Shown: positions 4,711 through 52,744 of the stretch, piece by piece
Position numbering within the stretch: the first letter of the stretch is position 1
Layout of the letters: each line of letters starts with the position of its first letter
IMG/VR virus record: IMGVR_UViG_3300022920_000255
Location: 1 to 58,380 of that record
Length of the DNA stretch: 58,380 bases
Reading direction: 5' to 3' (one strand)
Source: a virus
Translations under genes and position numbers: made by a program
The notes under the pieces: model-generated
What the model was told of the DNA's origin: nothing
Database searches by the model: none
Seen by the model: the letters and a program-made list of their open reading frames with translations, nothing else

Positions 4711-4746
4711 ACCTGAGGATTGGAATATGACAACGTATATAAACTA

Positions 4747-4775
4747 TTGACAAAAAAAGTTTTATGTTGTATACT
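4747..4775 (+). promoter_or_regulatory. Sigma70-type promoter for the KDO operon
   Basis: TTGACA 4747-4752 and TATACT 4770-4775 with a 17-base spacer, 23 bases before the kdsA ATG. Confidence 0.75.
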
Positions 4776-4797
4776 TGTATTATTAGGGAGAATACAG

Positions 4798-5568
4798 ATG
4801 CGGCTAATTGCAGGACCTTGTCAACATGAAACTCTAACACGTAGTGCAGAAATTGCTAAAGAATGTAAACGTGTATGCGACAAGTATGGTATTGATTATT
4901 ATTTTAAAGCAAGTTACGATAAAGCTAATCGTACAAGTGATAAAGGTGTACGTGGTATGGGAATGGAAGCCACACTCACTGACTTCTTAGCACTTAAAGT
5001 ATTGCTCAATGTAAAAACATTAACAGACGTACATGATTACGTTCAAGTAAAAAGAATAGAACATGAGTTTAAAGATGCGGTTGATGTATATCAGATACCA
5101 GCATTTTTATGTAGACAAACAGATTTGATTAAAGCTGCGTGTGCTACAGATAAAATTGTTAATATTAAAAAAGGTCAGTTTATGGCACCTTGGGATATGA
5201 AGGGTGTATTAAGTAAATGCGCAGATGCAAAAGAAGTTTGGATAACAGAAAGAGGGACAAGTTTTGGATATAATACTTTGGTTAATGATTTTACTGGCAT
5301 CAACTACATGCTTGACAATTTTAGCAATATTGTGTTCGATGCCACTCACTCAGTCCAGTTACCAGGAGGACAAGGTTCTAGTAGTGGGGGTAATCGCAAT
5401 TACGTTGCAGGTCTTACTAGGGCTGCTTCTGCTATGGGTGTCAGTAATTTCTTTTTAGAAGTACATCCAGATCCAAACAGTTCTCCATCGGATGGACAAA
5501 ATATGTTACGCTTAGATGATTTTGAAAGGACAGTAGATGAAATCCACCGCTATTCTTATACCCGCTAG
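4798..5568 (+). CDS. kdsA: KDO-8-phosphate synthase (KdsA)
   Basis: A 256-residue 3-deoxy-D-manno-octulosonate 8-phosphate synthase, condensing phosphoenolpyruvate with arabinose 5-phosphate. Family motifs: LIAGPC at the N-terminus, FKASYDKANRTS, PAFLCRQTDL, a GTSFGY loop, VFDATHSVQLPGGQ and EVHPDPNSSPSDG. A Cys in GPC, where E. coli KdsA has Asn, is the mark of the metal-dependent class. The start at 4798 has AGGGAGAA upstream and fits the promoter. It overlaps kdsB by 32 bases. It would supply KDO for a surface sugar. Confidence 0.88.
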   Translation: MRLIAGPCQHETLTRSAEIAKECKRVCDKYGIDYYFKASYDKANRTSDKGVRGMGMEATLTDFLALKVLLNVKTLTDVHDYVQVKRIEHEFKDAVDVYQIPAFLCRQTDLIKAACATDKIVNIKKGQFMAPWDMKGVLSKCADAKEVWITERGTSFGYNTLVNDFTGINYMLDNFSNIVFDATHSVQLPGGQGSSSGGNRNYVAGLTRAASAMGVSNFFLEVHPDPNSSPSDGQNMLRLDDFERTVDEIHRYSYTR

Positions 5569-6220
5569 ATACGAAAGTGAACGCTTTCCAGGAAAGCCAC
5601 TTTGTGATTTAGGCGGTAAGCCAATGATTCAAGTAGTTCATGATCGTTGTAAGGAATCCATTTATGATGTATATGTATTAACTGATGATTCAGAGATCGC
5701 TGGTTGTGTTAAGTCTTTTGGCGGCAATGTTTTAGTAGATACCAATGTATATGCCAATGGCACCGAAAGATGTGCTGGCGCAATCAAATCTAGTATCTTT
5801 GATAATTATGACAGATTTGTTAATGTACAAGGTGATATGCCTGATGTGACATTAGAGATGATTCAAAAGACTATATGGTCTTTGAACCGCTATTCGGTAT
5901 CTACTATGGCTACTGCGATGCCAGAAAGAGAACAGAATGATCCTAATATAGTTAAGTTAGTGAGAGCAGCAGATAAGTGCTTATGGTTCGGTAGAGGTAT
6001 GGTTGGATATGGTGATTGGCATTTAGGTATTTACGGATATAGACGTAATGCACTAGAAATGTATCCTAGCTTGTTTAGTCCACGTGAAGAACGATTGGAA
6101 GGATTAGAGCAACTACGTTGGTTAAAAGGTGGCTGGGATATAGGTGTTTTCCCTTGCGAGTTTAATGGTACCGAAATCAATACACCAGAAGATGCGGAGA
6201 GATGGAATGATAGCAGGTAA
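5537..6220 (+). CDS. kdsB: CMP-KDO synthetase (KdsB)
   Basis: A 227-residue 3-deoxy-manno-octulosonate cytidylyltransferase that activates KDO with CTP. Family features are the N-terminal IPARYESERFPGKPL signature, VLTDD, NGTERCA and VNVQGDMPD (family: NvQGDEP). It is a little shorter than E. coli KdsB (248). GAAAGGA precedes the start, which lies inside the end of kdsA, so the two are translationally coupled. The Asp in place of the usual Glu in QGDEP is a small oddity. Confidence 0.87.
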   Translation: MKSTAILIPARYESERFPGKPLCDLGGKPMIQVVHDRCKESIYDVYVLTDDSEIAGCVKSFGGNVLVDTNVYANGTERCAGAIKSSIFDNYDRFVNVQGDMPDVTLEMIQKTIWSLNRYSVSTMATAMPEREQNDPNIVKLVRAADKCLWFGRGMVGYGDWHLGIYGYRRNALEMYPSLFSPREERLEGLEQLRWLKGGWDIGVFPCEFNGTEINTPEDAERWNDSR

Positions 6221-25474: not shown

Positions 25475-26014
25475 ATGTCCGGAACAAAAAGAGTATATAA
25501 TCTAGAAGAAAAGAACTATTTCAAGTTCTTTGGGATCGAAGAAAAGCAAGATATTAGTGTGCGAAGTCTTACTACGCATTATAAAAAAATTGTAACCCTA
25601 CTCAAACAAGATAACAAGTTTTTAAGTAAAGATAAGGTAGCATTTGCACATCGTGCATTTGAAACACTTGCTGATCCAATCAGTCGTGCTAAATATATTT
25701 TAGAACTAAATGGTGTAGAAAATGATGTGAGAGATGGCGCATCCGCAGAAGATTTTTTGTTTATAAATAACTTGAATGCGCAGTACGATGCATCCAATAC
25801 AGTTGACGACATTCTGAATTTCATTCTAGAACTAAAAGAACAGACTTCATTCATCAAAGAACAAATTCAGTATTGTATTGATGAAACCCATAACTTTAAT
25901 ATGGCATCTGGGCTATTGAACCGGTTCTATGAAATCTCAGCAATACATGATAAAACAAAATTAAAGAAACATGAACTAGAACTAGGAATCAAACATGTTG
26001 TATTTGACAAATGA
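25475..26014 (+). CDS. HscB-like Fe-S co-chaperone lacking HPD
   Basis: A 179-residue protein of the HscB type by layout: an N-terminal J-like domain (YFKFFGIEEKQDISVRSL, HYKKIVTLL), the linker LADPISRAKYILELNGV that is diagnostic of HscB, then a C-terminal three-helix region (DFLFINNLNAQYD onward). In HscB this part binds IscU. The HPD tripeptide that stimulates HscA is missing (LLKQDNK is present there), so the protein may bind the scaffold without driving the chaperone. It overlaps the IscA-like gene by 20 bases. Confidence 0.7.
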   Translation: MSGTKRVYNLEEKNYFKFFGIEEKQDISVRSLTTHYKKIVTLLKQDNKFLSKDKVAFAHRAFETLADPISRAKYILELNGVENDVRDGASAEDFLFINNLNAQYDASNTVDDILNFILELKEQTSFIKEQIQYCIDETHNFNMASGLLNRFYEISAIHDKTKLKKHELELGIKHVVFDK

Positions 26015-26318
26015 CGCTGAAAAACGTATCATTAAATGGCTAGCAGATAACAACGCAAAATCAATTAAAATCTCAATGAAGACCGCAGGCTGTACAGGAC
26101 TAATGTATGAAGTTGTGATTGCTGATGGTTTTAATCCTACTACAGATTTTGCATCTAAATTTGATGGCTTTGATATTATTATCGAACATCAATATCTACA
26201 TGCACTTAAAGGTGCAACGTTAGATTACATAACAGAAGGTTTTAACTCACACTTTGAAATCGTTAATAATCCTAATGAGAAAGCAAAGTGTGGCTGTGGA
26301 GAAAGTTTTTCAGTATGA
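25995..26318 (+). CDS. IscA-like A-type Fe-S carrier
   Basis: A 107-residue A-type carrier (IscA/ErpA/SufA family). The three cluster-binding cysteines are present: one in KTAGCTGLMYEV and two in the C-terminal CGCGESF. The length equals E. coli IscA (107). It shares ATGA with the next A-type carrier gene. A-type carriers receive Fe-S clusters from the scaffold and pass them to client enzymes. Confidence 0.88.
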   Translation: MLYLTNDAEKRIIKWLADNNAKSIKISMKTAGCTGLMYEVVIADGFNPTTDFASKFDGFDIIIEHQYLHALKGATLDYITEGFNSHFEIVNNPNEKAKCGCGESFSV

Positions 26319-26638
26319 TATTTACAGAAGCGGCGGCTGAACGTGTTAAAGAAATTATCGTAGAACAAGATGAATCACCAGATACCTCATTGCGAGTATT
26401 TGTTGAAGGTGGTGGGTGCCATGGGTTTAGTTATGGATTCGGCTTCGAAGCTGATATAGCAGATGACGATACTATATACGAAACCAACGATGTTAAATTA
26501 GTAGTTGACAGTATGAGCATTATGTATCTAGATAGTGCAACTGTAGATTTTGTATCTAGTATACATGGTGACAGATTCGTTATTGACAATCCAAGTGCAA
26601 GCACAACATGCGGTTGCGGATCTAGCTTTTCAGTTTAA
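26315..26638 (+). CDS. erpA: ErpA-like A-type Fe-S carrier
   Basis: A 107-residue second A-type carrier, closest to ErpA: FVEGGGCHGFSYGFGFE, VVDSMSIMYLDSATVDF and the C-terminal STCGCGSSFSV block, nearly the same as E. coli ErpA. The ATG at 26315 overlaps the previous stop; an upstream in-frame ATG at 26288 would lie inside the IscA-like gene and is not favoured. ErpA delivers clusters to essential 4Fe-4S proteins. Two different carriers in one phage suggest separate clients. Confidence 0.88.
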   Translation: MIFTEAAAERVKEIIVEQDESPDTSLRVFVEGGGCHGFSYGFGFEADIADDDTIYETNDVKLVVDSMSIMYLDSATVDFVSSIHGDRFVIDNPSASTTCGCGSSFSV

Positions 26639-26652
26639 ATTAAGGAAACGAA

Positions 26653-26892
26653 ATGACAATTAAAGAAAAAATTTATGAAATCGTTGCAAGACGAACTAAA
26701 ACAAATATTTCTGATCTTGATAACGATATGAGTTTAAAAAAGGATCTTGGTGCAGACAGCATAGATACCGTAGAAATTATGTTTGATATTGAAGAATATT
26801 ATACCATATCAATTGATGATATAGATGCTGAAACGATAAATACAATTGACGATGCAATAAATATTGTAACAAAATTAGTCGAAAGTGGCTAA
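26653..26892 (+). CDS. Acyl carrier protein
   Basis: A 79-residue acyl carrier protein (E. coli AcpP is 78). The phosphopantetheine site is LGADSIDTVEI with the Ser that carries the 4'-phosphopantetheine arm; the protein is acidic with the usual four-helix pattern. It sits 14 bases after the ErpA-like gene. In bacteria ACP contacts IscS and in mitochondria it supports Fe-S assembly, so its place in this operon could be functional; lipid or LPS acylation is the alternative. Confidence 0.88.
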   Translation: MTIKEKIYEIVARRTKTNISDLDNDMSLKKDLGADSIDTVEIMFDIEEYYTISIDDIDAETINTIDDAINIVTKLVESG

Positions 26893-29203: not shown

Positions 29204-29312
29204 ACTTCGTGCTACAATGGATAAGATGCGTAAGTGGCGCAAACCTACATATGCACAGCTAATGGACTTTTTGCATATCTACTCAGAATTGTCTATTAGG
29301 AACGAAGTCTAA
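29172..29312 (+). CDS. Small early protein, 46 residues
   Basis: Starts inside the preceding gene in another frame and ends at TAA 29310-29312. It has a basic stretch (MDKMRKWRKP) followed by an aromatic helix (YAQLMDFLHIYSEL). The amphipathic composition suggests a true short gene; function unknown. Confidence 0.45.
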   Translation: MEHVSSTSTAELRATMDKMRKWRKPTYAQLMDFLHIYSELSIRNEV

Positions 29313-29321
29313 AAAAATTGC

Positions 29322-29345
29322 ATAAATAAAAGTAGAAGTTAATAA
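29322..29345 (+). repeat. 24-bp direct repeat, copy 1 (contains a late-type octamer)
   Basis: ATAAATAAAAGTAGAAGTTA plus ATAA occurs here and again at 29953-29976. Copy 1 reads CATAAATA at the octamer, copy 2 GATAAATA. Both lie before RNA genes. Confidence 0.8.
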
Positions 29346-29354
29346 AGAAAGTTC

Positions 29355-29383
29355 TTGACGAATCAAACAGAGTTTGCTATACT
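29355..29383 (+). promoter_or_regulatory. Sigma70-type promoter, distal one of a tandem pair
   Basis: TTGACG 29355-29360 and TATACT 29378-29383, 17-base spacer. It reads toward the ncRNA and tRNA array. Confidence 0.65.
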
Positions 29384-29456
29384 AAGAACATAGACAAAGA
29401 GGAATATACACTTCACTACTCGGTGAAATTATTTTCAAAAAAGTTTATAAAAAGAC

Positions 29457-29485
29457 TTGACAAACTACACTTAATACGCTATATT
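29457..29485 (+). promoter_or_regulatory. Sigma70-type promoter, proximal one of a tandem pair
   Basis: TTGACA 29457-29462 and TATATT 29480-29485, 17-base spacer. The predicted start is about 29492. Confidence 0.75.
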
Positions 29486-29491
29486 AAGTAT

Positions 29492-29608
29492 ATAAGTTAA
29501 GCAACGGGTGAGAGCGATAAATATCTCCGTGTAGATCAACGGTCAGTCTGCAACGCTATTTGACAATTTAGATACGGTCTTAGATGCAAATCGATGATAG
29601 ACAAAAGT
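29492..29608 (+). other. Transcribed leader before the structured ncRNA
   Basis: About 115 bases between the proximal promoter and the closing stem of the ncRNA. There is no open frame of note and no tRNA. The sequence is less AT-rich than ordinary spacers and may be part of the same RNA. Confidence 0.35.
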
Positions 29609-29746
29609 AAACTACTTTTCTCAGTATCCGAACAGAGGGCGGATCACCTGAAAGTTCAATACTAGTTTCAATCAAGCTAGAGCAGCAATGTCAATAAGGC
29701 TGTGCGGTACGATTGAAGATACTAGGGGTATTGCGAAAAGTAGTTT
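29609..29746 (+). ncRNA. Structured ncRNA of unknown class
   Basis: A 12-bp perfect closing stem, AAACTACTTTTC (29609-29620) with GAAAAGTAGTTT (29735-29746), encloses two nested arms. Arm A: TCAG/CTGA (29621, 29648) and ATCCG/CGGAT around AACAGAGGG. Arm B: CAATAC/GTATTG (29657, 29728), TTCAATC/GATTGAA (29667, 29711) and GCAGC/GCTGT (29682, 29699). This makes a three-way junction directly before tRNA-Asn. It does not match tmRNA, RNase P RNA or 6S RNA as far as I can see. Pairings were found by eye. Confidence 0.6.
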
Positions 29747-29750
29747 TTGT

Positions 29751-29826
29751 TCCCTGTTAGCTCAGTTGGTAGAGCAACTGACTGTTAATCAGTTTGTCGC
29801 TGGTTCGAGCCCAGCACAGGGAGCCA
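29751..29826 (+). tRNA. tRNA-Asn (GTT)
   Basis: Acceptor TCCCTGT/ACAGGGA, anticodon loop CTGTTAA, G73, encoded CCA. First tRNA of the array. Confidence 0.95.
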
Positions 29827-29925: not shown

Positions 29926-29951
29926 GAATAAATTATCACTATACCAAAAGT

Positions 29952-29959
29952 GATAAATA
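29952..29959 (+). promoter_or_regulatory. Late-type promoter GATAAATA inside the tRNA array
   Basis: Octamer in copy 2 of the 24-bp repeat, 18 bases before tRNA-Thr. It could give late transcription of the downstream tRNAs. Confidence 0.45.
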
Positions 29960-29976
29960 AAAGTAGAAGTTAATAA
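29953..29976 (+). repeat. 24-bp direct repeat, copy 2
   Basis: Same 24 bases as 29322-29345, ending one base before the preceding context of tRNA-Thr. Confidence 0.8.
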
Positions 29977-30386: not shown

Positions 30387-30475
30387 TGTCAATGCAGGTT
30401 AGCTAACAGTAACAGATATTTCAGCAGGCGTAAATATCAATTCTGTGGTAAGGTTCGAGTCCTCAATTGACACCA
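30387..30475 (+). ncRNA. tRNA-like element 1 (non-canonical)
   Basis: An 89-base element ending in CCA with a perfect 7-bp acceptor TGTCAAT/ATTGACA and a T-arm with loop TTCGAGT. The rest departs from a tRNA: the D-arm-like hairpin GTTA/TAAC has loop GCTAACAG without the GG pair, and the central hairpin GATATTT/AAATATC carries a 10-base loop (CAGCAGGCGT) in place of 7. It shares sequence with elements at 31687 and 32166. A normal anticodon cannot be assigned. Confidence 0.65.
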
Positions 30476-31091: not shown

Positions 31092-31120
31092 TTGACATTC
31101 GGTACAACATGTACTATATT
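31092..31120 (+). promoter_or_regulatory. Sigma70-type promoter of the micro-ORF unit
   Basis: TTGACA 31092-31097 and TATATT 31115-31120, 17-base spacer. The predicted start is about 31127. Confidence 0.75.
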
Positions 31121-31148
31121 AAGTGTATAACAAAGAGAAAAGAATCAC

Positions 31149-31208
31149 ATGTCAAATACTACATCATATATATTAGGATGGCCGCCAAGAGATTGGGGAA
31201 TGTTTTGA
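31149..31208 (+). CDS. Micro-ORF, 19 residues
   Basis: ATG 31149 to TGA 31206, ending GWPPRDWGMF. It is the only sizeable open frame of a short transcript bounded by a good promoter (31092) and a strong terminator (31239). The ribosome site (AAGAGAAAAG) is weak. It may be a real peptide or a leader; the unit could instead produce a small RNA. Confidence 0.4.
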   Translation: MSNTTSYILGWPPRDWGMF

Positions 31209-31238
31209 CGTGACTTTTTAACAAAAGTTATTTTAAGC

Positions 31239-31273
31239 AAGCCCCTAGTGTTAATTCATTAGGGGCTTTTTTT
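31239..31273 (+). terminator. Rho-independent terminator
   Basis: AAGCCCCTA/TAGGGGCTT 9-bp stem followed by TTTTT. Confidence 0.9.
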
Positions 31274-40760: not shown

Positions 40761-43556
40761 ATGAGCTATGTAGACGCCTACTACAACAAAGATAAAGATA
40801 TTGTGCAAGTCGTTGAACGTATCAACGGCAAGCGCATTTATCAAGATTATCCTGCGTGGCGTACATTCTATGTACGTGACGATAGGGGATCTCATACAAG
40901 TATTCACGGTGAGAAAGTTCGTCAAGTGAAAGTCAAACGTAAGAAAGACTTGCACAAAGAACTACGTATGCATTCTGATAAGAAGATTTATGAGAGTGAT
41001 ATTAAGCCGGAGATTAGATGTCTTGCTGAAAACTATCTTGGCAAGGACTCGCCAAAGTTGAATGTAGCGTTCTTCGATATCGAGGTTGACTTCGATGCGG
41101 TGCGCGGTTTTGCTCCGCCAGAAGATCCGTTCATGCCGATTACTGCAATTACAGTAGCACTACAATGGACTGGTCAACTCGTAACATTCGTTATTCCGCC
41201 AGAGCATATGCGTGAAGGTGAGGGACTAGAAGAAGCACAACGACTATGTGATAAGTTTGAAGATACGTTTTTGTATCTTAGCGAAGCAGATTTGTTGAAT
41301 GACTTCTTAGCTCTTATCGAAGATGCAGATGTAATTAGTGGTTGGAACAGTGAAGGCTTCGATATTCCATACACTCTTAATCGCATTGTGCGTGTGTTGA
41401 GCAAGTCTCATACACGTAAGCTATGCTTGTGGGACTTGTATCCTACTCCTAAGAAACTTATTAAGTATGGAAAAGAACAAACAAGTTATAACTTACTCGG
41501 ACGTATTCACCTCGATTATCTTGAACTGTATCGCAAGTACACATATCACGAAATGCATTCATATTCACTTGATGCTATCGGTGAGTATGAACTTGGCGAA
41601 CGTAAGGTTGCATATGAGGGTACACTAGATCAGTTATACAATCAAGACTTCTATAAGTTTATTGAATATAACAGACAGGATACTGCATTACTCGACAAAC
41701 TAGACAGGAAGCTACAGTTCATTGACTTGGCAAACGAGATTGCACACGATAACACTGTTAACATTCAAACTACAATGGGTGCGGTTGCTGTGACTGAATC
41801 AGCTATCATCAACGAAGCACACAGACGTGGTATGGTTGTTCCAGATCGTAAGCGTAGATCATGGGATACAGAAGACGATGATTATGAACCTACACGTGAA
41901 GAAGAGGAAGCGGCAGAAGCACAGAAAGCGGCTGGTGCATTCGTTGCAGATCCACAGAAAGGTCTGCAAAAGTGGGTAGCGGGTATCGATATTAACTCGC
42001 TGTATCCTTCTATCATTCGTGCGTTAAACATGTCTCCAGAAACTATTACTGCACAACTTCGTCCTGACTTGACTGATGAAATGATTCAGACACGTATCAG
42101 AACTGGTCGCGGTGGTAAGAGCAAAGGCTTTGGTGCTGCACAAGCATGGGAAGATACATTCTCTACAGAAGAGTTTCGTCTGTTGAATGAAAAAGACAAG
42201 ACACAAATAATGACTCTTGATATGGAAGATGGTTCTGAACATCAGTTGACTGGTGCAGAAGTAGCAGACTTAGTGTTCAGTGGTGATTTGCCGTGGGCTA
42301 TTAGTGCAAATGGCACTGTATTCAGACAAGACGTACAAGGTATCATTCCTAGTTTGCTTGAGCGTTGGTATGCAGAACGTAAAGTACTACAAGCTAATAA
42401 GAAGAAAGCAATTGAAAAGGGCGATAAAGAAGAAATCGCTTTCTGGGATAAACGACAGCTAGTTAAGAAGATTAACTTGAACAGTTTGTATGGTGCGATC
42501 CTTAATCAAGGGTGTCGTTTCTATGATAAACGTATCGGGCAATCAACTACTCTATCAGGTCGTTGTATCACACGTCACATGGGTGCTAAGACTAATGAAG
42601 TTATCGATGGCACGTATGACTATAAAGGCAAATCAGTTATCTATGGCGATACTGACTCTATCTACTATTCAATGTATCCTTCATATCACAAAGAAATCGA
42701 TAACGGTGAGATTGAATGGGATAAAGAGATTGCTCTTACTATGTATGACGAAATTGCAGATCAAGTAAACGCAAGTTTCCCTGACTTTATGAAAGACTTC
42801 TTTAATGTCCCTCGCAAGCAAGGTGAAATCATTGCTGCAGGTCGTGAGAACTTAGCAACGTCTGCTATCTTTATTAAGAAGAAACGTTATGCTATGCTTA
42901 TCTACGATGATGATGGTGAACGCCGTGATGTCGATGGCAAACCTGGCAAAGTTAAAGCTATGGGACTTGACTTGAAACGTTCTGATACTCCAGACTATAT
43001 GCAAACATTTCTTAGTTCGTGTTTGCTTAAAGTGCTTACTGGTGGGGATCAAGATGATATTGTTGGTATGGTCAAAGAGTTTAAGAAAGAGTTTCGCAAT
43101 AAGCCGGGTTGGGAGAAAGGTACTCCTAAGCGTGTTAACAACTTGACTAAGTTCAAGAATGATGTAGCAAAATACAAGAAAGCACAGAATGCAGACTTCA
43201 AGCTACGTAGTTCAGAAGACAAGTTGCAGAAGCCTAGACTTCCGGGACACGTGAGTGCTGCATTGAACTGGAATACATTACGTGAAATGCATGGGGATCG
43301 TTATTCTATTGAGATTACAGATGGTATGAAGACTATTGTATGTAAACTCAGAGACAATCCCATGAAGATGACAAGTATTGCATATCCAATTGATGCGGAT
43401 CGAATTCCAGAATGGTTCCAAGAACTTCCGTTTGATCATGATTTGATGGAAACAACAATCATTGACAAGAAGATTGACAACTTGATTGGTGTTCTGAAAT
43501 GGGACTTGCGTAATGCTAGTAACAGTGAAACTTTTGAAGATTTGTTTTCATTCTAA
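40761..43556 (+). CDS. Family B DNA polymerase (gp43-like)
   Basis: A 931-residue replicative polymerase (T4 gp43: 898). Exonuclease motifs: FFDIEVDFD (Exo I), ISGWNSEGFDIPY (Exo II), EYNRQDTALLDKL (Exo III). Polymerase motifs: GIDINSLYPSIIRAL (A), KKINLNSLYGAILNQG (B), VIYGDTDSIYYSM (C). Both activities look intact. A Glu/Ala-rich insert (about 373-395) separates the exonuclease and polymerase parts. The protein ends in a LFSF-type tail that could contact the sliding clamp. Its stop overlaps the methyltransferase start. Confidence 0.95.
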   Translation: MSYVDAYYNKDKDIVQVVERINGKRIYQDYPAWRTFYVRDDRGSHTSIHGEKVRQVKVKRKKDLHKELRMHSDKKIYESDIKPEIRCLAENYLGKDSPKLNVAFFDIEVDFDAVRGFAPPEDPFMPITAITVALQWTGQLVTFVIPPEHMREGEGLEEAQRLCDKFEDTFLYLSEADLLNDFLALIEDADVISGWNSEGFDIPYTLNRIVRVLSKSHTRKLCLWDLYPTPKKLIKYGKEQTSYNLLGRIHLDYLELYRKYTYHEMHSYSLDAIGEYELGERKVAYEGTLDQLYNQDFYKFIEYNRQDTALLDKLDRKLQFIDLANEIAHDNTVNIQTTMGAVAVTESAIINEAHRRGMVVPDRKRRSWDTEDDDYEPTREEEEAAEAQKAAGAFVADPQKGLQKWVAGIDINSLYPSIIRALNMSPETITAQLRPDLTDEMIQTRIRTGRGGKSKGFGAAQAWEDTFSTEEFRLLNEKDKTQIMTLDMEDGSEHQLTGAEVADLVFSGDLPWAISANGTVFRQDVQGIIPSLLERWYAERKVLQANKKKAIEKGDKEEIAFWDKRQLVKKINLNSLYGAILNQGCRFYDKRIGQSTTLSGRCITRHMGAKTNEVIDGTYDYKGKSVIYGDTDSIYYSMYPSYHKEIDNGEIEWDKEIALTMYDEIADQVNASFPDFMKDFFNVPRKQGEIIAAGRENLATSAIFIKKKRYAMLIYDDDGERRDVDGKPGKVKAMGLDLKRSDTPDYMQTFLSSCLLKVLTGGDQDDIVGMVKEFKKEFRNKPGWEKGTPKRVNNLTKFKNDVAKYKKAQNADFKLRSSEDKLQKPRLPGHVSAALNWNTLREMHGDRYSIEITDGMKTIVCKLRDNPMKMTSIAYPIDADRIPEWFQELPFDHDLMETTIIDKKIDNLIGVLKWDLRNASNSETFEDLFSF

Positions 43557-44970: not shown

Positions 44971-46533
44971 ATGGTTAAAGACTTAGGTAAAAACAACATC
45001 AGTAGCGGATATGCAGTATTTCTGCCCGCTATTTCTAACTTCTATGTTCGTAAGGTATCACAACATTACGCAGGAACAACAGACATGTTCCCTCCTGAGC
45101 GTATCCCTCAGGGATTTGAACATGGACTAGATGGACTAAACATCTTAGACAAAGATAAAGGCTATGTGTACTATTCGCATGGTCTTTATTCTGCTGGTCA
45201 TGCTGAACTAGACTTAGAAAAAACTAAAATCGAAGACGGCATGATTGTTAATCGTAATAGAGAAGAAACAGTTCTAGTAGGGGATTCAGGTGGGTATCAG
45301 ATTGGTACTGGTGCTTGGAAACTAGACTGGTCTTCATTCTATGATAAAGAAGGTGATTGGGCAAAGACACGTCATGGTATTATGGCGTGGCTTGAAGAAT
45401 ATTGTGATTATTCTATGACACTTGATATTCCGGGATGGGCATGTTTGCCACAGTATCGTGATAAGAACGGTATCAAAAACTGGGATGAATGTGTAGATAA
45501 AACAATCTTCAATCACGAATACTTTATCAACAACCGCACACCAGGCAAGACTAAGTTCTTAAACACTCTACATGGTTCCAATTGGGATACTAGTGAAAAG
45601 TGGTATGAGAAGGTCAAGCACTTCAATGATAAGTCAGTATATGGCGACAGAGCATTTGAAGGCTATGCGATGGCAGGGGATCACGCAGGTGATGCGGAAC
45701 TACTACTACGTAGACTTATTCGTTTACGTGATGATGGTCTGCTTGGACAAGCAGATCAATCAGATGTTTGGATTCACACTCTTGGCATAAGCGTTCTCCC
45801 ATGGGGTGCTATGTTAACAGCAATCCAACGACAGCTACGAAAGCATGTTAATCCAAACATCACAATCTCTTTTGATGCGGCGTCTCCCTATATTACTGCA
45901 TCGAAAGGGTTGGCTTATGACTATCCTGACTTGAATGGTAACGCTTGGTCTTACAAGACTAAGAAGTTGAATTGGCGTCAAGATATCAGTAATGATAAAC
46001 AACCCTGGTTGTATGAAGGGGAAATCGGCTCACGTTTGAATATGCGAGATATCAATTACATGCAACCTGGTATGCTCAATCGCAACAAGAAAGAAGCTAA
46101 ATCAAGTTGGGATAGTCTAAGCTATATTTTAATTCAAGCACATAATGCTGAATATCATATTCGTGGTATGCAAGACGCAATACGCAGGTTCGATCATGAG
46201 TATGAAATGTTGCATGATAAACTAGATATCAACAACATGAATTTGGGTAAAACTAACGTACTATCCGATATAGTTCCAGATAGAGTTCTGTACTTCGCTA
46301 AGTTCGTAGAAAAATTGTTTGACCCAAAAACTAAAGATCCTATGCAAATGCTAGGAGACTTTAAAGCGTTTCTACGAAAATGTGAAGGATCACGTGTCCA
46401 GAACATTTCTACTACTCCTGACTTTATGGAATTTGAAGAATCAAATGTAAAGACAGAAGAATTTGTAGAAGCAGTTAAGGGAAAGAAGAAAGAATATGAA
46501 GAACCTGAAGGAATAGCAGAATTATTCGGATAA
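44971..46533 (+). CDS. DpdA-like 7-deazaguanine DNA transglycosylase
   Basis: A 520-residue TGT-superfamily protein: VLVGDSGGYQIGTG (TGT DSGGFQ-type substrate motif), MTLDIPGWA near the expected nucleophile Asp, TLHGSNWDTS, and FEGYAMAGDHAGD like the glycine-rich base-binding loop. It lacks the CxCxxC zinc site of tRNA-guanine transglycosylases, as seen in DpdA proteins that insert preQ0-like bases in DNA. FolE, QueD-like and QueE genes nearby support a DNA-modifying role. The C-terminal 150 residues are helical and unassigned. Confidence 0.75.
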   Translation: MVKDLGKNNISSGYAVFLPAISNFYVRKVSQHYAGTTDMFPPERIPQGFEHGLDGLNILDKDKGYVYYSHGLYSAGHAELDLEKTKIEDGMIVNRNREETVLVGDSGGYQIGTGAWKLDWSSFYDKEGDWAKTRHGIMAWLEEYCDYSMTLDIPGWACLPQYRDKNGIKNWDECVDKTIFNHEYFINNRTPGKTKFLNTLHGSNWDTSEKWYEKVKHFNDKSVYGDRAFEGYAMAGDHAGDAELLLRRLIRLRDDGLLGQADQSDVWIHTLGISVLPWGAMLTAIQRQLRKHVNPNITISFDAASPYITASKGLAYDYPDLNGNAWSYKTKKLNWRQDISNDKQPWLYEGEIGSRLNMRDINYMQPGMLNRNKKEAKSSWDSLSYILIQAHNAEYHIRGMQDAIRRFDHEYEMLHDKLDINNMNLGKTNVLSDIVPDRVLYFAKFVEKLFDPKTKDPMQMLGDFKAFLRKCEGSRVQNISTTPDFMEFEESNVKTEEFVEAVKGKKKEYEEPEGIAELFG

Positions 46534-46543
46534 GGAGGTATAT

Positions 46544-46723
46544 ATGACACCCGAAAAGAAACAAGCACGACTAGAAAGCCTAAGAAAAAAGCACAGAGAA
46601 CTTGACAATCATATCAAAAAAGAGTATAACTTACACTTAGATGTGAATCATTTAAAATCTGAGAAACTACGAATGAAATCAGAAATTTATGCTTTAGAGC
46701 AGGAACTTGGAGATAATGGGTAG
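46544..46723 (+). CDS. Small DUF465/YdcH-like coiled-coil protein
   Basis: A 59-residue helical protein: HRELDNHIKKEY then HLKSEKLRMKSEIYALEQEL, the HxxLD ... LKxEKLxLKxEI pattern of the DUF465 (YdcH) family. It has an excellent ribosome site (AAGGAGGT). It overlaps the next gene by 8 bases. The function of the family is unknown. Confidence 0.6.
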   Translation: MTPEKKQARLESLRKKHRELDNHIKKEYNLHLDVNHLKSEKLRMKSEIYALEQELGDNG

Positions 46724-47171
46724 TTACTATAATTATATGCTAACAGAAACTAGGAAAGCAATCATGAAAGACGATATGGAAAAACAAAAACAAAATGCAA
46801 AACGTTGGATTTGGGTTACGTTTCAAAAAGAAGGTATTCACAAGTATCCAGCCGCATTGACAGATCCTGCTCTAGCGACAGGCGATGAATATGATGTATC
46901 TTTTTTGGGATATCCGCATCGTCACATGTTTCATTTCCGTGTAGCAATTAAAGTAACACATAATGACAGAGACATTGAATTCATTCAATTCAAGCGTTGG
47001 TTAGAAAACTTGTACAAAGATAATGTTATCGAACTTGATTATAAATCATGCGAAATGATGTCTGATGATTTGTTTGATCAAATCGTTGCGAAGTATCCAG
47101 GTCGTGATATCAAAATCGAAATCTCCGAAGACGGAGAAAACGGAGCATTAGTAGAATATGACGCTCAGTGA
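46716..47171 (+). CDS. QueD-like 6-carboxytetrahydropterin synthase homologue
   Basis: A 151-residue protein whose second half resembles QueD/PTPS: PHRHMFHFRVAIKVTH aligns with the zinc-binding HGHSF block, then IEFIQFKRWLENLY (DF-x-LK block), ELDYKSCEMMSDDLFDQIV and IKIEISEDGENGALVEY (C-terminal VxETxxxxxxY block). Some usual catalytic residues differ. The ATG at 46716 with GGAG 4 bases upstream is favoured over TTG 46707. It lies in the 7-deazaguanine gene group, where a QueD step is required. Confidence 0.55.
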   Translation: MGSYYNYMLTETRKAIMKDDMEKQKQNAKRWIWVTFQKEGIHKYPAALTDPALATGDEYDVSFLGYPHRHMFHFRVAIKVTHNDRDIEFIQFKRWLENLYKDNVIELDYKSCEMMSDDLFDQIVAKYPGRDIKIEISEDGENGALVEYDAQ

Positions 47172-47682
47172 AGAAATTCAAGCGATGGTTAGGGTAGTAC
47201 CTGATCATCCGCAACCAGGTATTATGTATCAGGATATGGCTAGTATCTTTAATCATCCGTCAGGGTTGACTAAAGTTATTCAAGCATTTCAAGAACAGAA
47301 TATCATCTACGACAGAATCGTAGGATTAGATGCACGTGGCTTTCCAATGGCTGGTGCATTAAGTGCTATTACAGGCAAACCGTTTGTTATGGCACGTAAG
47401 AAAGGTAAACTTCCGGGTGAGACTATCTCAACGGAATATGAATTAGAATACGGAACAGACGAACTACACCTTCAAACTGACTCAGTGTTAGACGATGACC
47501 GTGTTCTAATAATTGATGATGTTATTGCAACTGGTGGGACACTACTAGCGGCTACATCATTGATAGAACGAATGAATGGTAACATAGTTGGTATTCATTC
47601 GATTATGGACTTGACTTTTTTAGGCGGGTCTGCTAAATTGAGAGACAAGGGTTATCCCGTGTTCTCAATTTTAAGTGAGTAA
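47158..47682 (+). CDS. apt: Adenine phosphoribosyltransferase-like protein
   Basis: A 174-residue type I phosphoribosyltransferase with the PRPP loop VLIIDDVIATGGTLLAAT and the Apt-type N-terminal part (VPDHPQPGIMYQDM, GLDARGFPMAGAL, KKGKLPGETIS). Length and motifs match bacterial Apt, which salvages adenine to AMP with PRPP. It overlaps the QueD-like gene by 14 bases. The DpdA reaction releases guanine and MTA/adenine can arise from SAM use, so base salvage fits the setting; that link is inference. Confidence 0.85.
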   Translation: MTLSEEIQAMVRVVPDHPQPGIMYQDMASIFNHPSGLTKVIQAFQEQNIIYDRIVGLDARGFPMAGALSAITGKPFVMARKKGKLPGETISTEYELEYGTDELHLQTDSVLDDDRVLIIDDVIATGGTLLAATSLIERMNGNIVGIHSIMDLTFLGGSAKLRDKGYPVFSILSE

Positions 47683-47705
47683 CTGGTAAAACGAATAGGA
47701 ATCTA

Positions 47706-48776
47706 ATGTTATATCTTATAGACTTGGAGAGTGTTGAATCCCGCTACACAAAGCAATGGAAGACACATCTCCCCACATTGTTACGAAGCAACGGTATTGA
47801 TGTTACTGTGATTGACGGTCCAACCGACATTCCAGAAGCCACTACACCTGGTGCATTTCTCAACTTTGGTGGTACAAATATCTATAAGAGCGCACAATTA
47901 GAAAAGATAGCAAAACTGATCTGTGATGGCGAAGTCAAAGATGGTGACTATTTTCTCTATACAGATGCGTGGAATCCCACTGTCATCCAGCTTAAATATA
48001 TGGCAGAATTACTTGGGATAAAACTCCGTATCGGTGGTTTATGGCATGCTGGTAGCTATGATCCGCAAGATTTCTTAGGTCGTTTAATTGGCGATGCTTC
48101 ATGGGTTCGTAAAGCGGAAATGAGTATGTACGATTGTTATGATGATAACTTTTTTGCTACTAAGTTTCATATTGATTTGTTTACAAATACATTCTGGGAC
48201 GATGACCGTGATATCGACAGGCAACTACTTCACTCTATACGACAAGTGGGTTGGCCTATGGAATACATCGAAGAGGATCTTAGTGAGTATAAGAATATGG
48301 CGAAAGAGGACATCATAGTATTCCCACATCGTATTGCTCCTGAGAAACAGCCAGAAGTTTTTGACTACATTGCTGAACAGATGCCAGAGTATCAGTTCAT
48401 TAAATGTCAGGACTTGAACTTGACAAAGCCAGAATACCACACCTTACTTGGTAAAGCTAAGTTAGTGTTTAGTGCTAACTTGCAGGAAACTCTGGGTATC
48501 TCAGTATACGAAGGTCTGCAAGTTGGTGCTATTCCTATGGTCCCAGATAGACTTTCATATAGTGAAATGTGGACTAATCACTTTAAATATCCAAGTGAAT
48601 GGACTTCTTCATTGGATGCAACAAAGAAAAACATTGAAAATATTAAAGCATATATTCATATGCAAATGTCGAAGAATAGTGACCTAACTTGGACAATGAA
48701 TGAAGAACTACGTAATGTAGAAAAGTTCTATAGTGGTAGTAAATTAATTAAAACAATTAAGGAAAATCTCGAATGA
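47706..48776 (+). CDS. GT-B glycosyltransferase
   Basis: A 356-residue glycosyltransferase of GT-B type. The C-terminal half holds the donor-binding pattern (VFSANLQETLGISVYEGLQV, an E-x7-E motif). The N-terminal half is unlike known T4 DNA glucosyltransferases. The target may be phage DNA, the modified base, or host surface sugar; the 7-deazaguanine context weakly favours DNA. It overlaps the iron-permease gene by 4 bases (ATGA). Confidence 0.65.
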   Translation: MLYLIDLESVESRYTKQWKTHLPTLLRSNGIDVTVIDGPTDIPEATTPGAFLNFGGTNIYKSAQLEKIAKLICDGEVKDGDYFLYTDAWNPTVIQLKYMAELLGIKLRIGGLWHAGSYDPQDFLGRLIGDASWVRKAEMSMYDCYDDNFFATKFHIDLFTNTFWDDDRDIDRQLLHSIRQVGWPMEYIEEDLSEYKNMAKEDIIVFPHRIAPEKQPEVFDYIAEQMPEYQFIKCQDLNLTKPEYHTLLGKAKLVFSANLQETLGISVYEGLQVGAIPMVPDRLSYSEMWTNHFKYPSEWTSSLDATKKNIENIKAYIHMQMSKNSDLTWTMNEELRNVEKFYSGSKLIKTIKENLE

Positions 48777-49363
48777 TTACTAGTTTTATATATGTAGGTA
48801 GAGAAGCAATAGAAATAATGCTACTCACCTTTATGATTATTACTGCAATAAAAATAAACAAAACACTTATAGCAACTGCATTACTAGGTATACTACTAGG
48901 TGGTATACTAGGGTATATGATAGGCGATTTCTTATATGGTTATGATACATATATGTATGCAGGATTATCAGCTATGATGTTCTACTTATTTTTTACGAGT
49001 AGCTCATTGCCCGAAAAAATTAAATTACGTATGGAATCATTAGAAAATAAATCTGCATGTTGTGCTAAGGTACTAGGACTGTTTTTAGTTTGGCTAGTAT
49101 TCTTCCGTGAAAGTTTAGAAATTTTTGTGTTTATGTTCCAGAATGTACACAATAATCTCCCATCCTGGATTGGTGCTGGAGTATCAGTTCTTTTGATAGT
49201 ACTAGTATACAACTATATGAAAGTGTACGCTAATCGCAAATTTAGACCAGAAATTAAAAAACTAATGTTTAAAGTATCTAACTATGCATTCTTAGCATTT
49301 GGTATATTCTTTGCATACGAGGCACTTAGGCATTCATCATTAGTTCATTTACATCTAATATAA
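48773..49363 (+). CDS. FTR1/EfeU-like iron permease
   Basis: A 196-residue protein with about six membrane segments. It carries two REXXE motifs, REAIE (residues 9-13, TM1) and RESLE (about 114-118, TM4), the paired iron-binding motifs that define FTR1/EfeU ferric or ferrous permeases. EfeU has about 276 residues and seven segments, so this is a compact form. It is translationally coupled to the glycosyltransferase. Together with the Fe-S genes it suggests that the phage raises iron supply. Confidence 0.7.
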   Translation: MITSFIYVGREAIEIMLLTFMIITAIKINKTLIATALLGILLGGILGYMIGDFLYGYDTYMYAGLSAMMFYLFFTSSSLPEKIKLRMESLENKSACCAKVLGLFLVWLVFFRESLEIFVFMFQNVHNNLPSWIGAGVSVLLIVLVYNYMKVYANRKFRPEIKKLMFKVSNYAFLAFGIFFAYEALRHSSLVHLHLI

Positions 49364-49379
49364 ATTTGAAGAATGCAAA

Positions 49380-49387
49380 GATAAATA
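49380..49387 (+). promoter_or_regulatory. Late-type promoter GATAAATA
   Basis: Octamer 51 bases before the ATG at 49438. Confidence 0.6.
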
Positions 49388-49437
49388 CATATGATAGAGA
49401 GTATCCCAGCTTTCTATCATATTTTGGGAGAAATAAT

Positions 49438-49740
49438 ATGGCTCGTTACAGAGGTATGATCACCAACAACATTAAGTTTGATGCAACAATCAAGGTTCGC
49501 CGTTCGATTGACTTACGTGAACTATCAGACTTTGGTTCAATCACTGATGCAGCACAAGATTTACCAACATCAGGTGCAACACATCGTAAAGCAACAGGTG
49601 GTTCAACTTCAGCAACACGCGGACACGCAGATTTACGTGATATCCACAGTGAAGCAGTAGTTGATCGCCAAGATATGGGTTCGGTTGCTGATACAGCAAG
49701 AGACACATTAGGCTATAATGATGAACCTTATCTACACTAA
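49438..49740 (+). CDS. Stand-alone copy of the shared virion N-terminal module
   Basis: A 100-residue protein homologous to the first 100 residues of the proteins at 810 and 2097 (RRSIDLRELSDFGSI, QDLPTSGATHRKATGGSTSA, QDMGSVAD), with no C-terminal domain. The ATG at 49438 with GGGAGAA upstream is chosen. Late promoter upstream. It may occupy the same particle sites as the longer proteins or compete with them. Confidence 0.65.
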   Translation: MARYRGMITNNIKFDATIKVRRSIDLRELSDFGSITDAAQDLPTSGATHRKATGGSTSATRGHADLRDIHSEAVVDRQDMGSVADTARDTLGYNDEPYLH

Positions 49741-49757
49741 TTAATTTAAAATAAGTG

Positions 49758-49786
49758 TTGACAAAATAACCCACTTGTAGTATTAT
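49758..49786 (+). promoter_or_regulatory. Sigma70-type promoter of the folE operon
   Basis: TTGACA 49758-49763 and TATTAT 49781-49786, 17-base spacer. Confidence 0.75.
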
Positions 49787-49840
49787 AATATTATGAGTGG
49801 GTTTACCATATCCATATCTAAAATAAAGGAACATAGTATA

Positions 49841-50527
49841 ATGACAAAGACTTCCGAAATAAAGGAACGCTTGATTGAAAATAATATCAGGCATTGGGCA
49901 GGGGACAATATTAGTCAAGTCCTACAACCCGGCGATAAAGACATTCTAATAGATGAAGCAACAGATGCATTCGAAAATGTACTTGATGCACTTCTTATTG
50001 ATCGTGAAAACGATCCTAACTCTCAAGGTACAGCAAAGCGTCTAGCTAAAATGTATTATAACGAGATTATGGCAGGACGTTATGATGCAGCACCTAGCGC
50101 AACAGCGTTTCCTAATGACAACGGGCATACATATAAAGGTATGCTAGTAGTTCGTAGCGAACTTAAATCAATGTGTTCGCATCATCATCAGCCAGTTACT
50201 GGGATTGCATACATAGGTATCATTCCTGGTGAGAAAGTTATTGGACTTTCGAAATATACTCGCATTGCACAGTGGTGTGCAAGACGTGGTACATTACAAG
50301 AAGAACTATGCAATGATATCATGCGTGAAATTATCAAAGCGACTGATAGTGAGCATGTAGGTGTTTATATTCAAGCAACACATGGTTGTTGTGAAAATCG
50401 TGGCATTATGGCACACAGTTCACTTACGCAAACAACTGTACTTAATGGTGGGTTCTTAGATGACCCAAGTGTTAAGAAAGAATTCTTTGACAACATCAAG
50501 CTACAACAGGAGTTTGCTCCAAGATGA
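49841..50527 (+). CDS. folE: GTP cyclohydrolase I (FolE)
   Basis: A 228-residue GTP cyclohydrolase I, the first step from GTP to dihydroneopterin triphosphate for folate and 7-deazaguanine. Zinc and active-site motifs are present: SMCSHHHQPVTGIAYIG, ATHGCCENRGI. The ATG at 49841 with AAAGGAA upstream is chosen over 49793, which sits at the transcript start. The product feeds QueD and QueE. It overlaps the next small gene by 4 bases. Confidence 0.92.
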   Translation: MTKTSEIKERLIENNIRHWAGDNISQVLQPGDKDILIDEATDAFENVLDALLIDRENDPNSQGTAKRLAKMYYNEIMAGRYDAAPSATAFPNDNGHTYKGMLVVRSELKSMCSHHHQPVTGIAYIGIIPGEKVIGLSKYTRIAQWCARRGTLQEELCNDIMREIIKATDSEHVGVYIQATHGCCENRGIMAHSSLTQTTVLNGGFLDDPSVKKEFFDNIKLQQEFAPR

Positions 50528-50718
50528 TAGATCCAAAAGTAACAAAGCTAGTAAAAGAACTTGAACAACAAATTAAGCAAGTTAACGAAACATGGGCAAA
50601 ATTACAAAAGAATAATGTATTTGTTCGTGCAGAATTTAAAGGTACACATACATATGATGAACCCAAATCAATCGTAGTAACTAAAATTACTCAAAATGTT
50701 GAATATCTGAAGGGTTAA
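50524..50718 (+). CDS. Small helical protein between folE and queE
   Basis: A 64-residue protein with an N-terminal helix (VTKLVKELEQQIKQVNETWA) and a short beta tail. It shares ATGA with folE. No family is recognised; the position suggests a role linked with the 7-deazaguanine genes. Confidence 0.5.
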   Translation: MIDPKVTKLVKELEQQIKQVNETWAKLQKNNVFVRAEFKGTHTYDEPKSIVVTKITQNVEYLKG

Positions 50719-50722
50719 AAAT

Positions 50723-51595
50723 ATGAAACTAAGATATAGCGAAGCGTTCTATTCTCTTCAAGGTGAAGGTAAGTTTGTAGGAGTACCTAGTGTATTCCTA
50801 CGCACATTTGGTTGTAATTTACGTTGTCAAAATTTCGGACTAAATAAAGATAGAGAGAAATCAAGGTATAATCCTGAGGTTGAACAACTTATTAAGGATG
50901 GAGTCCATGAGACTACAAAACGATTTGAAGACTTACCTATTATACACACAGGATGCGACACATATGCTAGTATCTATCCTGAGTTCAAGCATCTAGTTCA
51001 CGATTCAACAATCGATGAAGTAGTAGAGCATTTACTTTCTCTAACTCCCCAAGGTAAATGGACACAAGATGATGGGCAAGATGTACATCTTATTTTAACA
51101 GGCGGTGAACCGTTGTTGGCGTGGCAACGACTTTACGTAGAACTATTCGAACACCCACGTATGCAGGACTTAAAGAATGTTACATTTGAAACAAACACTA
51201 CACAACATTTACATGACGATTTCTACAACTATCTCAACAACCATGATGACCTTACAGTCACTTGGAGCTGTTCCCCGAAACTTAGTGTTTCAGGAGAACG
51301 TTGGGAAGATGCTATTAAACCTGACGTTGCTTGGGAGTACCAGTGTGTTACTGATAGCGACATGTATCTCAAGTTCGTTGTCGCTAGCCAAGATGATTTT
51401 GCAGAAGTCGAAAAAGCTGTTAGTGCTTATCAAGATGCCGGGGTACAATGTCCAGTATATCTTATGCCGTTGGGCGGACGCAGTGAAGAATATTCCCTCA
51501 ATGTTAAAGACGTGGCGGAAGCCTGCATGGCGAGAGGGTGGCGATTTACACCAAGACTACACATTTCACTCTTCGGAAATGCCTGGGGAACTTAG
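50723..51595 (+). CDS. queE: QueE-like 7-carboxy-7-deazaguanine synthase
   Basis: A 290-residue QueE-type radical-SAM enzyme: EAFYSLQGEGKFVGVPSVFL at the N-terminus and LTGGEPL are family signatures, and the C-terminus ends LFGNAWGT. The cluster motif is split: the first two cysteines are in CNLRC, but the third position reads NFG; the next Cys (HTGCDTYASIYPEF) lies about 45 residues on, after an inserted loop. Known QueE proteins also vary this spacing. It would convert carboxytetrahydropterin to CDG using SAM. Confidence 0.85.
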   Translation: MKLRYSEAFYSLQGEGKFVGVPSVFLRTFGCNLRCQNFGLNKDREKSRYNPEVEQLIKDGVHETTKRFEDLPIIHTGCDTYASIYPEFKHLVHDSTIDEVVEHLLSLTPQGKWTQDDGQDVHLILTGGEPLLAWQRLYVELFEHPRMQDLKNVTFETNTTQHLHDDFYNYLNNHDDLTVTWSCSPKLSVSGERWEDAIKPDVAWEYQCVTDSDMYLKFVVASQDDFAEVEKAVSAYQDAGVQCPVYLMPLGGRSEEYSLNVKDVAEACMARGWRFTPRLHISLFGNAWGT

Positions 51596-51661
51596 GCAAA
51601 ATGAACAACTACGTAGAGCGATGGAAGCTCCAATAGACTATGAAAAACTAAGGAAACAACT

Positions 51662-52744
51662 ATGAATCAAAACTATATTTTTACGAGCGAAAGTGTTAGC
51701 GCAGGACATCCGGATAAGGTCGCAGACCAAATCTCAGATGCTCTAGTTGATGCCGGGTTCAAAGCAGGCGATGAAACAACACGTGTTGCTGTTGAAACAC
51801 TTGTAACTACCAATCATGTAACATTGGCGGGCGAAGTAAAAAACTTTAACGTAAGCAGAGATGAAGTTAAAGAAATCGTGCGAAACAAAGTTAAAGAAAT
51901 TGGTTATGAGCAAGAAGGGTTTCATTGGGATAACTTAAATATCTACAATGAGCTACATGAACAAAGCGCAGACATTGCATTGGGAACTGATGATTTTGGT
52001 GCAGGCGATCAAGGTATCATGTTTGGATACGCATGTAACGACAACGATGCATATCTCCCAGCGCCTATATACTATGCACATGAAGTTCTTAAAGAACTTA
52101 AAACTCAAAGACAGCATGTATTAGGCCCAGATGCTAAATCACAAGTAAGTGTACAGTACGATGGCGGACGTGTACAGCGTATCGACCAAGTTGTTATTAG
52201 TACACAGCACGGAGAAGGACAAGTAGAGCAAGCAAGAAATATTAGTAAACTTGCTGCAATGAATGTATTAGGAGATTTGATTGATGATAAAACTGTATGG
52301 CACCTTAATCCTACTGGTAACTTTGTTATTGGTGGGCCCGACGGTGATGCTGGTGTTACTGGGCGTAAAATTATCGTGGATACTTATGGCGGATTTGCTC
52401 CTCATGGCGGAGGTGCTTTTAGTGGCAAAGATCCTACAAAAGTTGATAGGTCAGCAGCATACATGGCTCGCTGGCTCGCTAAAAATGTGGTAGCAGATGA
52501 AATGGCAGACTGGTGTAACATTCAGTTGTCGTATGCTATTGGTGTAAAGCAACCAACAAGTATCTATGTTGAGTCTAATGGATACAGCAAGAGTATTGAA
52601 AAGTTTATTCGTGAAAATATTGATCTAAGTCCAAAAGGGATCATTGATCGTTTCGATATGTTTAATTTTTATAACTACAGTGAGAACTGTGTATACGGAC
52701 ACTTTGGTAATAAAGATGTGCCGTGGGAAAAGATTGGATGGTAA
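51662..52744 (+). CDS. metK: S-adenosylmethionine synthetase (MetK)
   Basis: A 360-residue methionine adenosyltransferase making SAM from ATP and methionine. Signatures: SESVSAGHPDKVADQIS, FGAGDQGIMFGYA, GGPDGDAGVTGRK, GGGAFSGKDPTKVDRSAAY. It is slightly shorter than E. coli MetK (384) but with all key motifs. It directly follows queE, a SAM user; the phage also has a second radical-SAM protein and a DNA methyltransferase. AAGGAAAC is the ribosome site. Confidence 0.93.
   Translation: MNQNYIFTSESVSAGHPDKVADQISDALVDAGFKAGDETTRVAVETLVTTNHVTLAGEVKNFNVSRDEVKEIVRNKVKEIGYEQEGFHWDNLNIYNELHEQSADIALGTDDFGAGDQGIMFGYACNDNDAYLPAPIYYAHEVLKELKTQRQHVLGPDAKSQVSVQYDGGRVQRIDQVVISTQHGEGQVEQARNISKLAAMNVLGDLIDDKTVWHLNPTGNFVIGGPDGDAGVTGRKIIVDTYGGFAPHGGGAFSGKDPTKVDRSAAYMARWLAKNVVADEMADWCNIQLSYAIGVKQPTSIYVESNGYSKSIEKFIRENIDLSPKGIIDRFDMFNFYNYSENCVYGHFGNKDVPWEKIGW

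Follow-up and report, generated by a model that had tools for sequence, protein, structure and literature searches.

The structured region at the head of the tRNA array in the 58,380-base virus record IMGVR_UViG_3300022920_000255 of IMG/VR (the whole stretch analysed here, called the window) contains a three-way-junction RNA, element B, that belongs to a family with a conserved fold and a self-complementary loop. Our preferred interpretation, for which we regard the case as evenly balanced, is that B acts in trans as a discrete homodimeric RNA of T4-type marine phages, the host of which is probably alphaproteobacterial, and that it combines a constant chassis with an exchangeable arm. Function in trans is suggested by the single copy per genome and by the changing neighbours, which are tRNAs or varied ORFs; the homodimer is suggested by a conserved fold in which the loop switches between palindromes, and the modular scaffold by the loss of the arm in members that keep the chassis.

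All elements of the region lie on the plus strand. The initial annotation had named two good promoters at 29355 and 29457, and both were recovered as sigma-70-like sites: the upstream one (TTGACG-17-TATACT, 29355–29383) scores 10/12 and is conserved in sequence in L003, and the second (TTGACA-17-TATATT, 29457–29485) scores 11/12, directly precedes element A and has the same spacing to it in L002, L003, and L004. A promoter scan over 3 kb gave 14 sites, compared with 7.7 (sd 2.7) in shuffles. The position at the head of a tRNA array was likewise confirmed by ARAGORN, which found thirteen tRNAs downstream of the structured region, starting with tRNA-Asn (29751–29826) 4 nt behind the B model match, and which called no tRNA or tmRNA on 29355–29746. 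The idea of a single structured RNA behind the promoters held only in part: the structure is present, but the interval consists of two independent elements rather than one fold. These are element A, a member of a two-hairpin RNA family (29499–29553; match of model R2 with an E value of 3.3e-8, the window sequence being in the training set), and element B (29607–29747; 130.7 bits with model R1, the window sequence again being in the training set). The alignments show that the spacer between them (29554–29606) is common to L003 and missing from L057. Both of these loci carry A and B, with B directly following A in L057; in L002, L004, and L006, the stretch before the tRNAs matches 29499–29553, and the three-way junction is absent. 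L057 and L002 have flanks that are 94–96% identical, and they differ in that B lies between A and tRNA-Asn only in L057. The two elements also occur apart in large records, for example in that of L108, with B at 83,655 and A at 87,255.

Further features were seen in and around the array. The repeat ATAAATAAAAGTAGAAGTTAATAA lies before the promoters (29322–29346) and before tRNA-Thr (29951–29974), is also found in L002 and L003, and could be a type of phage promoter. A tRNA-like stretch at 30388–30475 has a GTCAAT/ATTGAC acceptor, a GGTTCGAGTCC T-arm, a CCA end, and an odd D-arm; neither ARAGORN nor Rfam called it, and L003 has no counterpart of it between tRNA-Ala and tRNA-Gly. The array itself contains, at 31092–31268, a TTGACA-17-TATATT promoter, a small reading frame of some 19 codons identified by eye (MSNTTSYILGWPPRDWGMF), and a strong hairpin of terminator type.

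The minimum free energy of 29600–29750 is −49.8 kcal/mol, compared with −30.0 (sd 3.3) for shuffled sequences (z −6.05; 0/200 as low), and the fold contains the two nested arms of a three-way junction that had been noticed at the outset. The proposed 12-bp perfect closing stem is also correct, as AAACTACTTTTC at 29609–29620 pairs with GAAAAGTAGTTT at 29735–29746, and pairing resumes past a mismatch, giving a stem P1 with strands at 29609–29629 and 29726–29746. The P2 arm (29630–29657), supported by fold and covariation, has an 8-nt loop with the self-complementary tetranucleotide GAUC at 29642–29645, a kissing-loop contact predicted from the palindrome statistics given below. The P3 arm (29661–29725), supported in the same way, ends in the apical loop AAUGUCAAUAAG at 29687–29698 according to the fold. 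A UGUCAA within the P3 loop is complementary to a −35 box.

Relatives of B were collected from IMG/VR with a 16-base pattern, which yielded 74 stretches, and with a relaxed pattern, which yielded 108, 80 of them given individually. The alignment (A3) comprises the window and 80 loci and leaves out L079, L105, L110 and other copies, and L175–L187. Model R1 matched all 81 sources, that is, the window and the 80 loci, which had been chosen as pattern-bearing or known homologues; on 73 loci from the GCAATGTCAATAAGGC pattern, it separated 51 B members (at least 78 bits), six members of a sub-family B2 (23–37 bits), and 16 non-members. Reverse-strand hairpin echoes of B were not counted as members, and two loci that matched the first 18-base pattern exactly, L007 and L008, were rejected as apparent chance matches in unrelated sequence. 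As members were sought with core or chassis patterns, the apparent conservation is inflated, and conserved bases within the patterns are partly a selection effect.

In the 68 distinct rows of the alignment, 97.6% of the cells are paired, compared with 91.1% in shuffles and at most 45.1% in slid alignments. Changes on both sides occur in 20 of the 46 pairs, against 10.8 in shuffles, the covariation score reaches 0.276 where shuffles give 0.157, and 0/500 shuffles reached any of the five measures. Compensatory changes in homologues, which had been set as a check earlier, are thus present in B, as they are in A (11/13 pairs, see below). P1, with 21 pairs, contributes 11 of the 20 pairs changed on both sides, and its sequence is free while the pairing is kept. 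These changes bear on the idea that B is a MITE-like, selfish mobile DNA element with inverted repeats that merely happen to fold as P1. Variable sites, presence or absence at one site, and copies with internal deletions would suit such an element, but compensatory changes in P1 as well as in the internal helices, the switching of the palindrome, a Shine-Dalgarno sequence adapted into P1, and the single copy all argue against it, and we consider this explanation highly improbable.

The P2 loop bears on how B molecules may associate. Positions 4–7 of the loop octamer read GGCC in 43 of the 81 rows, GAUC in 21, CCGG in 11, and GUAC in three, and the rare forms GCGC, GGCU, and UCGG occur in one row each. 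The tetramer is a Watson–Crick palindrome in 79/81 rows, in 14 of the 16 distinct octamers, and in five of the seven distinct tetramers, and the remaining forms (2/81 rows) are palindromic once GU pairs are allowed. In the octamer's other frames, 0–1 of 16 are palindromic; across 65 variable alignment windows, palindromes average 9% with a maximum of 40%, and 0/20,000 column shuffles reached 14/16 palindromic octamers. On a tree from which the P2 arm had been left out, the tetramer changed about 20 times, two of these changes leading to GU forms, an approximate figure as this was a quick tree from 129 columns. The palindrome lies outside the core patterns and one chassis pattern, and it is partly fixed in the other chassis pattern. 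Adjacent loop bases cannot pair with each other in one chain, and covariation that keeps the palindrome therefore points to pairing between separate copies. PMC12286853 argues in this way for L9.3 of OLE and L21a of GOLLD, which form homo-oligomers, and B displays this type of loop covariation with its five Watson–Crick palindromes. Judged from the sequences, B RNAs probably work as pairs through the P2 loop. The sub-family B2 (L061, L067, L074, L100, L115, and L131) shares the AAUGUCAAUAAG loop but sets it in another shell, and P2 was not seen there by eye, so that not every P3 core comes with the loop contact; B2 associates either by other means or not at all. In L067, L100, and L115, B2 sits behind promoter-like sequence.

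Two chassis patterns gave 91 matches over all loci, 78 with the GUCAAUAAG core nearby and 13 without it. Of these, L196 is truncated where its contig ends, and the loop of L195 is altered. The other 11 (a second copy in L142, together with L188–L194 and L197–L199) have lost or replaced the third arm while keeping the loop palindrome and a P1 in which 20–23 of 23 positions pair; part of the palindrome was fixed by the chassis pattern itself in L142 and L188–L190. Similar flanks can enclose differing third arms: the arm is full in L170 and L176, deleted in L188 and L190, and replaced in L189. In L142 and, by eye, in L073, a second chassis with a different arm directly follows the first. Many B members carry, between P2 and P3, a conserved module of about 45–50 nt (..GAAUAAUUCGCCUGUGAAAUAUCAGUGUCGUGAAAACG..), seen in L063, L077, L129, L140, and others, which is a further exchangeable domain. 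We tentatively suggest, as a possibility that goes beyond our preferred interpretation, that T4-type phages of marine origin have a self-dimerising RNA of modular build in which a chassis of P1 and a kissing-loop P2, sometimes in tandem, bears grafted third arms, and in which the palindrome code pairs each RNA with its own kind and could keep the RNAs of co-infecting phages separate.

B matched in 28 of 30 records, in each at one forward-strand place; one of the 28 also gives a reverse-strand echo of its B, and two of them are B2 records with weak scores. The two records without a match are those of L067 (a B2 record) and L083 (a non-member pattern match). In a second record set, five of 17 records matched, all of them with B loci, and B was single-copy even in records of 203,815 and 275,366 bases. 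The distribution is patchy, as 0/12 records chosen for A carry B. What follows B varies among the 81 members: 11 have a tRNA 2–8 nt downstream, 36 have an ATG no more than 6 nt away, 14 have an ATG at 7–30 nt with its own Shine-Dalgarno sequence, 17 have something else, and three reach the contig end. The motif GGAG lies within the 3′ strand of P1 in 36/36 of the members with the close ATG, in 2/17 of the "other" class, and in 3/3 members at a contig end, and it is absent there from all 14 members with an ATG at 7–30 nt and from all 11 tRNA members, the window included. Whenever an ORF abuts, its ribosome binding site has thus become part of P1. The commonest ORF after B (32/50) encodes a 68-aa protein family beginning with MRTVHYVG, the gene for which is present in 44/81 B sources; this protein was rejected as an obligate partner of B, as it was not found in 20 of the 21 records searched, most of which bear B.

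The ribosome binding sites inside P1 keep the main rival explanation viable, namely that B is a cis-acting leader or a riboswitch-like element, with the downstream gene's ribosome binding site masked by P1 and a ligand, a protein, or dimerisation as the switch; before a tRNA, such a leader would act on elongation or processing. Both the strict association of GGAG with abutting ORFs and the frequency of the 68-aa family fit this explanation, which we nevertheless regard as doubtful: 45/81 members lack an ORF start within 6 nt of P1, B is single-copy per record with unrelated neighbours, and the 68-aa protein was found in hardly any of the records searched for it. The close abutment of B to the next gene, be it a tRNA or an ATG, would also be expected of a module for processing or stability, a robust structure at the 5′ end with a cleavage site that shields the downstream RNA or sets its ends and has no function of its own, and a long P1 of free sequence with maintained pairing would suit it as well. 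However, a general-purpose unit of this kind should recur, yet B is single-copy, neither the loop palindrome nor the strongly conserved P3 core would be needed, and L002 has the same tRNAs as the window without B; we therefore think this explanation unlikely.

If B is instead a trans-acting homodimer, as we prefer, it would be transcribed together with the tRNAs from the tandem promoters and would fold into a chassis in which the arm P2 is combined with the long P1 closing stem, and the self-complementary tetranucleotides of the P2 loops would join two copies. P3 would then be an exchangeable head that offers a binding surface, most likely one that sequesters or scaffolds a factor of host or phage. 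Beside tRNAs, the RNase P cut at the 5′ end of the tRNA would free B, the abutting tRNA providing a ready 3′ end. In mRNA contexts, a cut inside the P1 duplex, for which RNase III is the likeliest enzyme, would release B and also free the Shine-Dalgarno sequence of the next ORF.

Element A is a second RNA family, independent of B, and its neighbour here. In the R2 match, hairpin 1 has a GGU bulge (29507–29509) and hairpin 2 a GGUYA loop. Relatives were retrieved with a gapped pattern that gave 51 IMG/VR stretches, and alignment A4 contains 24 distinct sequences, L016 and L053 having been dropped by eye. In these sequences, 95.5% of the cells are paired, compared with 72.5% in shuffles and at most 55.8% in slid alignments, and 11 of the 13 pairs show changes on both sides; two measures, the further pair types (470/500 shuffles as high) and the both-side pair count (69/500), do not clearly exceed the shuffles. 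The GGU bulge, a CG..AAAUA loop, and the GGUYA loop are conserved, all of them parts that the search pattern itself fixed. Element A occurs as a single copy in 33/35 records and as two copies in none, next to differing neighbours, either tRNAs or various ORFs, of which one looks clamp-loader-like by inspection, and in several members hairpin 2 is GC-rich and followed by T, resembling a terminator. A likeness of its loops to the guanidine-II riboswitch was considered and rejected, as there was no Rfam match and the loops are not constant.

The impression that the RNA fits no known class is in line with the Rfam 15 covariance search, which gave tRNAs only at the gathering score. With 29300–29760 as query and E values up to 10, the 4227 families, riboswitches, phage pRNA, 6S, and tmRNA among them, contained nothing credible, the best match in the region being RT-6 with 17.9 bits against a gathering score of 46.7, on the wrong strand; cmscan of 13 loci at E values up to 3 gave no match for A or B, the models of ROOL, GOLLD, and OLE included. 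B, A, and B2 as queries had no match in INPHARED. A blastn search with the window region hit 125 INPHARED records, and the short, weak matches in the best 20 were read as compositional and rejected; among the matches listed, the best has an E value of 7e-5 and covers query positions 88–205, the AT-rich promoter part and the start of A, and most are from Gram-positive phages. Exact patterns for B and for a narrow variant of A had 0 matches in GTDB genome contigs, a search that divergent copies escape. Searches of the alphaproteobacterial phages HTVC008M, phiM12, Cr30, and RHph_N34 gave neither A nor B, and a B match in phiM12 at an E value of 0.58 was dismissed as noise. Searches of the open-licence PMC literature turned up no recognisable description of A or B. 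On this basis, we rate B as a new family among the self-associating structured phage RNAs, with the combination of a small chassis and an exchangeable arm as its putative distinctive trait.

The source of the window is likely a T4-type phage of an alphaproteobacterial host, which we infer from protein matches to Rhizobium phages, from gp23 in related records, and from two-piece tmRNA genes. A 220-aa protein encoded upstream of the window tRNAs has INPHARED matches solely in 21 Rhizobium phages, and gp23, the major capsid protein of T4-type phages, is found in 6/19 related records, including those of the B-bearing loci L108, L110, L122, and L152; the window record, possibly a fragment, yielded no gp23. 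Two-piece (permuted) tmRNA genes occur in the related virus loci L009, L021, L030, L039, L044, L076, L170, and L176, with tags such as ANDNFA...ALAA, and often lie less than 1 kb from element A. According to PMC9004378, genes of this type are present in most Alphaproteobacteria, and their occurrence in marine phages is already on record there. The window also encodes a family-B DNA polymerase (40761–43556), and metabolic genes lie at 4720–6220, 25475–26892, and 44971–52744. Those for KdsA/KdsB-like, iron-sulphur assembly-like, TGT-like, and metK-like proteins, folE, and queE were named by eye, the acyl carrier protein gene being the exception to naming by eye; the set suggests 7-deazaguanine chemistry.

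Stable non-tRNA RNAs exist in the tRNA cluster of T4, and B resembles them by location, as a non-tRNA RNA in a T4-type tRNA cluster. ROOL and GOLLD are described in PMC12286853 as structured RNAs of phages and prophages, of unknown function and often near tRNA islands, which self-assemble into 8-mers and 14-mers, partly via symmetric kissing loops; the ROOL example of that paper has 659 nt, and GOLLD often exceeds 800 nt. B is like them in being a structured phage RNA near tRNAs with a predicted self-association, but it differs in its size of about 140–225 nt, in having no Rfam match, and in the predicted dimer through one loop. OLE is bacterial rather than phage-borne and of different size and fold, and B has no Rfam match to it. 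Short loop–loop pairing, predicted for B, is also used by other viral RNAs, the phi29 prohead RNA and the HIV-1 DIS (PMC7357161). As outlined in that source, the DIS palindrome in the genomic RNA has 6 nt and conserved purine flanks; purine flanks are common in B as well, and its core palindrome has 4 nt. The phi29 pRNA, in contrast, pairs two different loops and serves the packaging motor (PMC7357161), and B has no known link to packaging.

Few natural self-assembling RNAs are known, and those of phages near tRNA genes, ROOL and GOLLD, are very large, as summarised in PMC12286853. B, with 140 nt and a loop that switches between five palindromes, is small enough for complete study, and its family already supplies orthogonal loop variants as well as naturally occurring arm deletions. 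The covariance models of A and B would annotate about a hundred or more contigs of uncultured viruses, and B would make the function of self-assembling phage RNAs directly testable.
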